This document shows, piece after piece, positions 39,612 through 46,935 of a stretch of DNA of 64,000 nt. Numbering within the stretch: the first letter of the stretch is position 1; the number at the start of each line of letters is the position of its first letter. The position numbers and the translations under genes are program-made. The notes beneath the pieces are model-generated. The model searched no databases, was not told the DNA's origin, and saw only the letters and a list, made by a program, of their open reading frames with translations. This DNA is from Acidobacteriaceae bacterium (GTDB lineage Bacteria; Acidobacteriota; Terriglobia; Terriglobales; Acidobacteriaceae): assembly GCA_025355505.1 (NCBI GenBank), contig JANXZM010000096.1:99364-163363 (forward strand), given 5' to 3'.

Positions 39612-42322
<2,711 letters not shown>

Positions 42323-46140: not shown

Positions 46141-46217
46141 TGATTGGAGCTGGTTTTGGCGGGAAATTTCTCAAATTGAAACAGGTTAAATTTTTTAGAA
46201 AACACGGAAGTTGATCC

Positions 46218-46245
46218 TTGACAATCGAGGCGATGGGCCTACGAT
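46218..46245 (+). promoter_or_regulatory. Putative promoter ahead of a candidate small RNA
   Basis: TTGACA (46218-46223) is followed after 16 bases by TACGAT (46240-46245), with TATAGC just beyond. It points away from the ATP synthase operon, toward two hairpins and no coding region. The perfect -35 box makes it worth noting. The -10 is a 4/6 match. Confidence 0.4.
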
Positions 46246-46249
46246 ATAG

Positions 46250-46332
46250 CTATTACCTCCGATCCTAGTCCGGATCGAATGGGCCAATAGCCAAGGAAGA
46301 GTCACCGCTTCTTGGCTGGCGGCCCATTTTAA
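46250..46332 (+). ncRNA. Candidate small structured RNA
   Basis: After the putative promoter come GATCC-TAGTCC-GGATC (46261-46276) and a longer hairpin. The longer hairpin is TGGGCC (46280-46285) with GGCCCA (46321-46326), an inner AGCCAAGGAAG / CTTCTTGGCT stem with one bulge, and an eight-base loop. ATTTTAAATT follows, giving a terminator-like end. No open frame on the plus strand overlaps it sensibly. It matches no RNA family that I can name. Confidence 0.4.
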
Positions 46333-46542
46333 ATTCAGCGCTTCCCGCCGCGCAAGAATCAAAAGCGTGAACCACTAAGGGCACTTAAGGTACACCAAGG
46401 AAAAGACGCGGCAGAAAACATGACTGCAAATTGACACTGGGTTGACAACTGCTGGTGCTGGGACGGGAAGAATGGTGGCTGTTTCAGGCTGGAAGTGTCT
46501 GGCGGGGTGCGGCTCTCTCCCACCCTCGCCAGACCTTTTTTG

Positions 46543-46935
46543 TTACGCGGTCTCGCGTACGGCGACGGGCTGAAGCAGGACTGCGATGCGTTCGAGGATT
46601 CGCTGCATGCTCATGTTGGAGTCGACGGCGTCGTCGACTTCGTGATGGTGGGTGCCGGCGTGCATGACCAGAATCCTGGTTCCCTCGTGGGCCTTCTTGA
46701 CCATATAGGGCAGGTGATGGCGATCGTCCTTGGACAAGGTCGCGCCAAGAATGACGAGATCAAAAGCATCGCGGCGCAGGGCTTCCTGAACGCCCTGGCG
46801 GTTAAGGGCTGTGGTGACGTGATGACCGGCTTTGGTCATTTCGGCGGCTTGGGCGGAGAGTGTGTGTTGGTCCGACTCGCCGTAAAGAACCTTGGTGGTA
46901 GATTTCTCAGCGGATTTCTGCGCGGTTGCGGGCAC
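46543..46935 (-). CDS. Degenerate receiver-domain (CheY-like) protein
   Basis: This is a 130-aa single-domain protein. The strand-helix order KVLYGESDQHTLSAQAAEMTKAGHHVTTALN, then FDLVILGATLSKDD, then THILV-like TRILVMHAGTHHH follows the CheY receiver fold. The phospho-acceptor Asp expected after FDLVIL is replaced (LGATLS), so phosphorylation seems unlikely. It may work as a phosphorylation-independent pseudo-receiver. The start is GTG at 46935, with AGGAGG four bases upstream. It stands alone. Confidence 0.68.
   Translation of the reverse strand: MPATAQKSAEKSTTKVLYGESDQHTLSAQAAEMTKAGHHVTTALNRQGVQEALRRDAFDLVILGATLSKDDRHHLPYMVKKAHEGTRILVMHAGTHHHEVDDAVDSNMSMQRILERIAVLLQPVAVRETA

Follow-up and report, generated by a model that had tools for sequence, protein, structure and literature searches.

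A predicted anti-Shine-Dalgarno-type small RNA family of the Terriglobales (Acidobacteriota), commonly located between atp and hfq-hflX genes

Results

The DNA analyzed here is a 64,000-nt window (this term denotes the whole stretch) from an Acidobacteriaceae bacterium (GCA_025355505.1, JANXZM010000096.1, contig positions 99,364–163,363, forward strand). Facing away from the first gene of an atp operon, a sigma-70-type promoter is followed by a short single-stranded tail, two hairpins and an AT-rich stretch, and a gene for a 130-aa protein approaches from the other side (Table 1). In the window's genus this protein gene occupies the position that hflX has in other genera. The first-pass annotation of this sequence had proposed a candidate small RNA, a promoter and double hairpin with an AT-rich tail, divergent from atp; the perfect TTGACA and the spaced −10-like box on which it relied are both present, and the ATP-synt_B gene indeed lies on the minus strand. 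Downstream of the segment, CCACTAAGGGCACTTAAGGTACACCAAGG (46372–46400, plus strand) occurs as a single copy within the window; we take it to resemble a dispersed repeat of other environmental genomes.

Table 1. Features of the sRNA locus and its neighbors (window coordinates)
Feature	Position	Strand	Evidence or remark
−35 box TTGACA	46218..46223	+	TTGAC kept in homologues
−10 box TACGAT	46240..46245	+	16-nt spacer from TTGACA
sRNA gene, predicted ~84-nt transcript, start A46252	46252..46335	+	both ends inferred; covariance models R1 and R2, covariation, fold z
5' single-stranded tail AUUACCUCC, 9 nt (AUCACCUCC in most relatives)	46252..46260	+	corresponds to 16S anti-Shine-Dalgarno end
Hairpin 1, CGAUCC-UAGUCC-GGAUCG, 6 bp	46260..46277	+	fold; compensatory UA to CG change in 9 sequences
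Hairpin 2, two-part terminator-like stem	46278..46328	+	double-sided changes in 15/19 pairs
Apical loop AGUCACCG	46300..46307	+	(CA)CCUCC in diverged genera, second C-rich site
AT-rich tail TTAAATTCA, short U tract of presumed intrinsic terminator	46329..46337	+	conservation ends here
First gene of divergent atp operon, ATP synthase B/B' subunit, 156 aa	45537..46007	-	Pfam PF00430 (ATP-synt_B)
130-aa protein, genus-conserved, convergent to sRNA	46543..46935	-	no Pfam match

By itself the promoter consensus is unremarkable, with three matches in 2.5 kb against 1.2 expected. TTGAC is present in 96 of 108 homologues, 86 of these 96 have the 16-nt spacer to TAnnnT, and the distance from the end of TAnnnT to the predicted +1 is 6 nt in most homologues; based on this usual discriminator length, the transcription start was placed on the A of AUCACC. 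On either side of the stretch bounded by the −35 region and the tail, information content among the homologues drops to about zero, i.e., conservation spans the −35 box to the AT-rich tail and ends there. In the most diverged genera (L251, L252–L258, L263, and L266) TTGC/TGC-type sequences replace TTGAC at the −35 position and TAnnCT −10 boxes stay; a changed promoter class is possible in these genera.

The 84-nt RNA has a predicted folding energy of −37.1 kcal/mol (z −5.13), and none of 200 shuffles is equally stable. In this fold the last base of the 5' tail (46260) doubles as the closing base of hairpin 1, which the first-pass annotation had already seen; the hairpin itself stands (CGATCC/GGATCG), with a stem of 6 bp rather than the 5 bp originally given. 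The two-part stem described after it was also recovered, as hairpin 2, composed of an outer stem AATGGGCC/GGCCCATT and an inner stem TAGCCAAG-AAG/CTT-CTTGGCTG. As had been noted, an AT-rich sequence (TTAAATT) comes next; two T closing the hairpin 2 stem directly precede the tail TTAAATTCA. Being short and interrupted (UUUUAAAUU), the U tract is weak as a terminator or as an Hfq site.

Standard pairs account for 97.1% of the pair cells in 83 distinct sequences. Of the 25 base pairs, 17 (mostly within the terminator-like stem) carry double-sided changes, compared with 8.5 in shuffles and 4–8 with slid partners (0 of 500 shuffles reach 17); please note that the covariation alignment was fitted to the model's own structure and is hence biased towards it, and that the compensatory changes are readable by eye in the unaligned sequence list too. 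G-U cells outnumber A-C cells by 211 to 18, or by 99 to 15 after two G-U-major pairs are dropped, indicating that the RNA is the plus strand.

These data also bear on a small protein gene or a chance palindrome as the reason for the conserved segment. Among ORFs of 40 aa or more, just one overlaps the segment, a 55-aa TTG frame on the minus strand, and since genera differ by indels of 1–3 nt in their tails and loops, a reading frame is excluded, in keeping with the first-pass statement that no coding frame explains the segment. The 55-aa frame does overlap the RNA; the varying tail and loop lengths, the G-U asymmetry, and a conservation that stops at the promoter and the tail all speak against a coding origin, and the RNA-like covariation already refutes it, leaving this explanation next to negligible. 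A small antisense ORF with a Shine-Dalgarno (SD) sequence and start codon (GGAGGTGAT...ATG, opposite strand) was rejected as well: its ATG rests on variable −10 letters and is absent in the window and in several congeners.

Two covariance models were used, a genus-level model of 21 sequences (R1) and a broader one of 83 sequences (R2). A DNA search of 24 genus genomes found the RNA in nearly all, with homology in most of them bounded by the −35 box and the tail. R1 detected it in 137 of 300 family genomes (54 of 79 genera) and R2 in 326 of 397 Terriglobales genomes (67 of 80 genera), five genomes from a second family among them, almost always as a single copy per genome. Beyond the order, a 299-genome class sample contributed only one weak, doubtful match (G846, L272, E 5e-4), which was set aside for having neither the promoter nor most of the structure; with the narrower R1, matches in a phylum sample of 297 genomes were confined to the same family. 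Named contigs with the exact motif are Terriglobales metagenome-assembled genomes, e.g., Candidatus Sulfotelmatobacter and Candidatus Angelobacter. The first-pass annotation had proposed a search for covariation in relatives, and both conservation and covariation turned out to be very strong; it is the conservation in relatives that decides in favor of the small RNA it suggested. The RNA is best explained as vertically inherited and conserved across the Terriglobales.

The exceptions were inspected individually. Three genus genomes gave no match: G023 has a contig break, and G012 and G006 have bins from which atpF1 is missing. G119 carries the RNA, though the fast filters of the order search missed it. 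True absence, i.e., atpF1 with no RNA beside it, was seen in G254 and G036; in the former (L302), where hfq lies a short way upstream of atpF1, neither the sRNA nor hflX is left at this place, a natural deletion for comparison. G019 has a second copy (L033) on a small contig that bears a divergent atpF1, which makes another organism in the bin its probable source.

The usual site of the RNA gene is between the divergent atp operon and a convergent hfq-hflX operon. Among 107 homologous loci, atpF1 is upstream and divergent in 92, hflX (assigned by Pfam) is downstream and convergent in 65, and both flank the RNA in 61; hfq is on the same downstream side in 58, typically about 1.6 kb off (often 1.5–2 kb), and Hfq is encoded in 24 of 24 genus genomes. 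Four loci have hflX without atp and 11 have neither neighbor within the available flanks, some of which are short; the RNA is also intact beside unrelated genes (e.g., L089, L098, L099, L252, and L266). Persistence of the RNA and its promoter without either or both neighbors indicates an independent sRNA gene.

If the segment were instead a cis element of the intergenic region, regulating the divergent atp operon or the convergent hflX by transcription interference or as a shared terminator, then its very frequent position between atp and hfq-hflX would be accounted for, as would an hflX stop that is often near the RNA 3' end (median distance from the matched end, 77 nt). We consider this quite unlikely, given that promoter and structure are kept where atp, hflX, or both are absent, that the RNA does not overlap the atp leader, and that the stem, read on the minus strand, lacks a following T and would have A-C mismatches in place of the 211 G-U cells. 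A role as leader or attenuator for a same-strand gene downstream is very improbable: the element would share with known attenuators the terminator-like hairpin at its end, whereas the downstream gene is variable and normally convergent (an RR-like gene in the genus, hflX elsewhere), an orientation that already largely refutes this role, and no conserved alternative (antiterminator) pairing was seen. On the grounds of orientation, the G-U asymmetry and the loci without these neighbors, a cis leader, an attenuator and an hflX terminator were rejected. The segment has the properties of an sRNA gene, namely its own promoter, no coding frame, a conserved structure, a presumed terminator and independence of its neighbors, and we are close to certain that a real sRNA gene is located here.

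The exposed 5' tail AUCACCUCC is identical to the 16S rRNA end CUGGAUCACCUCCUUU, i.e., the anti-SD sequence; the 16S end was read directly as CTGGATCACCTCCTTT in three genomes of the family. This tail is found in most genera, with AUUACCUCC in the window and AUCGCCUCC in one genus, and both variants retain pairing to GGAGGUGAU via G-U wobble. In more diverged genera the tail reads ACCACCC or similar, having lost CCUCC in the most diverged ones, and the apical loop reads (CA)CCUCC, so that the best anti-SD stretch shifts from the tail to the apical loop. Tail changes include AUCGCC in g46 and ACCACC in g34. Of 51 distinct tail/loop combinations, 35 contain 6 nt or more of the 16S tail, compared with a mean of 4.6 and a maximum of 13 in shuffles, a comparison in which shared ancestry is not controlled. 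The retention of an SD-complementary stretch over these 51 combinations, together with its shift from tail to loop, suggests selection for an exposed SD-complementary site, not for one fixed sequence.

A pattern search of three genomes for the full 9-nt SD match 3–9 nt before an ATG returned few sites (9, 3, and 10, overlaps included), with one site per genome being the antisense of the RNA gene itself, and no common target gene was found among them; pairing would thus be shorter or elsewhere. The best-looking 9-nt candidates come from a single genome and are two small ORFs of 46 aa in tandem. These ORFs (MKYRKPEIVAVVNATMAIEG... and MEYRKPEVVAIVEATLAIEG...) lie at L283 1501 and 1763 on the plus strand (G015:C10:2021350, 2021612), are possibly peptide precursors, and have before each ATG the sequence AAAGGAGGTGATAC, an 11-nt match to the 5' region of the RNA. 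The atp mRNA was dropped as an anti-SD target: the atpF1 leader has no SD sequence in the listed family loci (L010–L132), making it no obvious target.

The search of Rfam, Acidobacteriota motifs included, that the first-pass annotation had called for gave no match. At the site Rfam 15 membership was found neither at gathering nor at permissive thresholds (E ≤ 10 in the window, E ≤ 5 in nine homologous loci), the lone signal in the search to E 10 being a chance-level one on the other strand (E 7.7), and the covariance models of Acido-1 (RF01686) and Acido-Lenti-1 (RF01687) did not match the RNA at any reported threshold. Like the present RNA, Acido-1 and Acido-Lenti-1 are candidate non-coding RNAs from Acidobacteria; their function is unknown (PMC2864571). 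Elsewhere in the window, an Acido-Lenti-1 RNA scores 39.1 bits, above the gathering score, at 41156–41202 (+), antisense in the atpG-atpD gap of the same atp operon. No earlier description of our RNA was found in a limited check of the open-access literature. Judged from its sequences, this is a new RNA family that Rfam 15 does not contain; it extends over the order, is syntenic with hfq-hflX and atp, and shows strong covariation.

Discussion

We propose that the RNA represents a new family of trans-acting, translation-blocking sRNAs of the anti-SD type, a reading to which we give a probability of about 0.55. Briefly, the sigma-70-type promoter would start the RNA at or beside the A of A-U-(C/U)-A-C-C, and the long intrinsic-terminator hairpin would end it; once expressed, the exposed 5' tail and the C-rich apical-loop site would most likely pair with the SD or translation-start regions of mRNAs encoded elsewhere, and this pairing would block ribosome binding on a set of mRNAs, i.e., regulation would presumably be negative. 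Hfq, which these genomes encode, probably assists the pairing.

The closest parallel in design is the α-r14/NfeR1 family (cuckoo RNA) of α-proteobacteria. NfeR1 is 123 nt long with three hairpins, each with CCUCCUCCC, is Hfq-independent, and blocks translation start regions through its anti-SD motifs (PMC10746234). Both RNAs are small and stably folded, with a sigma-70-type promoter and unpaired anti-SD motifs, and the α-r14/NfeR1 family is trans-encoded, as trans action is proposed here. In contrast, the present RNA comes from another phylum, is only about 84 nt long with two hairpins, not three, and carries (AU)CACCUCC in the 5' tail or in one loop; CCUCCUCCC is absent from it. The unpaired anti-SD motif is thus a likeness of mechanism, not of descent, and homology to α-r14/NfeR1 is not demonstrable. 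With Hfq-dependent trans-acting sRNAs the RNA shares the promoter, the 5' seed, the terminator hairpin and an Hfq-encoding host; it differs from them in its short U tract, and Hfq use is an inference in our case.

The main rival to a trans-acting sRNA is a structured RNA whose main action is to bind a protein, such as a ribosome-associated factor, an S1-like protein or RNA polymerase; its 16S-like tail would then serve as a ribosomal decoy and not as an mRNA seed. Conservation of both sequence and structure, with a near-invariant loop GUCACCGC, would fit such a role, as would the identity of the tail to the 16S end, the small number of perfect SD targets and the common neighbor hflX, whose product is a ribosome-binding GTPase. 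We hold it to be unlikely nonetheless, since the order of elements is unlike that of 16S rRNA, the tail being 5' of the hairpin and not 3', and no Rfam family such as 6S matches; moreover, tail and loop drift among genera yet stay C-rich, a pattern more in line with base pairing than with a fixed protein site. A global modulator of translation tied to energy state or stress, competing for SD sites or occupying a ribosome-associated factor in place of the action of an ordinary few-target sRNA, would be a long shot. We therefore retain the trans-acting, anti-SD-type sRNA as our working model.

Acidobacteriota are abundant soil bacteria. A 2022 survey lists four distinct annotated sRNAs for this phylum (PMC9029176, Table 1). 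The present work goes beyond the first-pass annotation in the order-wide spread, the hfq-hflX neighborhood and the anti-SD tail. It adds a strongly supported sRNA family, kept over nearly the whole order at a conserved place near hfq-hflX and atp, whose covariance model is usable now for annotating genomes and which offers an entry point into post-transcriptional regulation of the Acidobacteriota.
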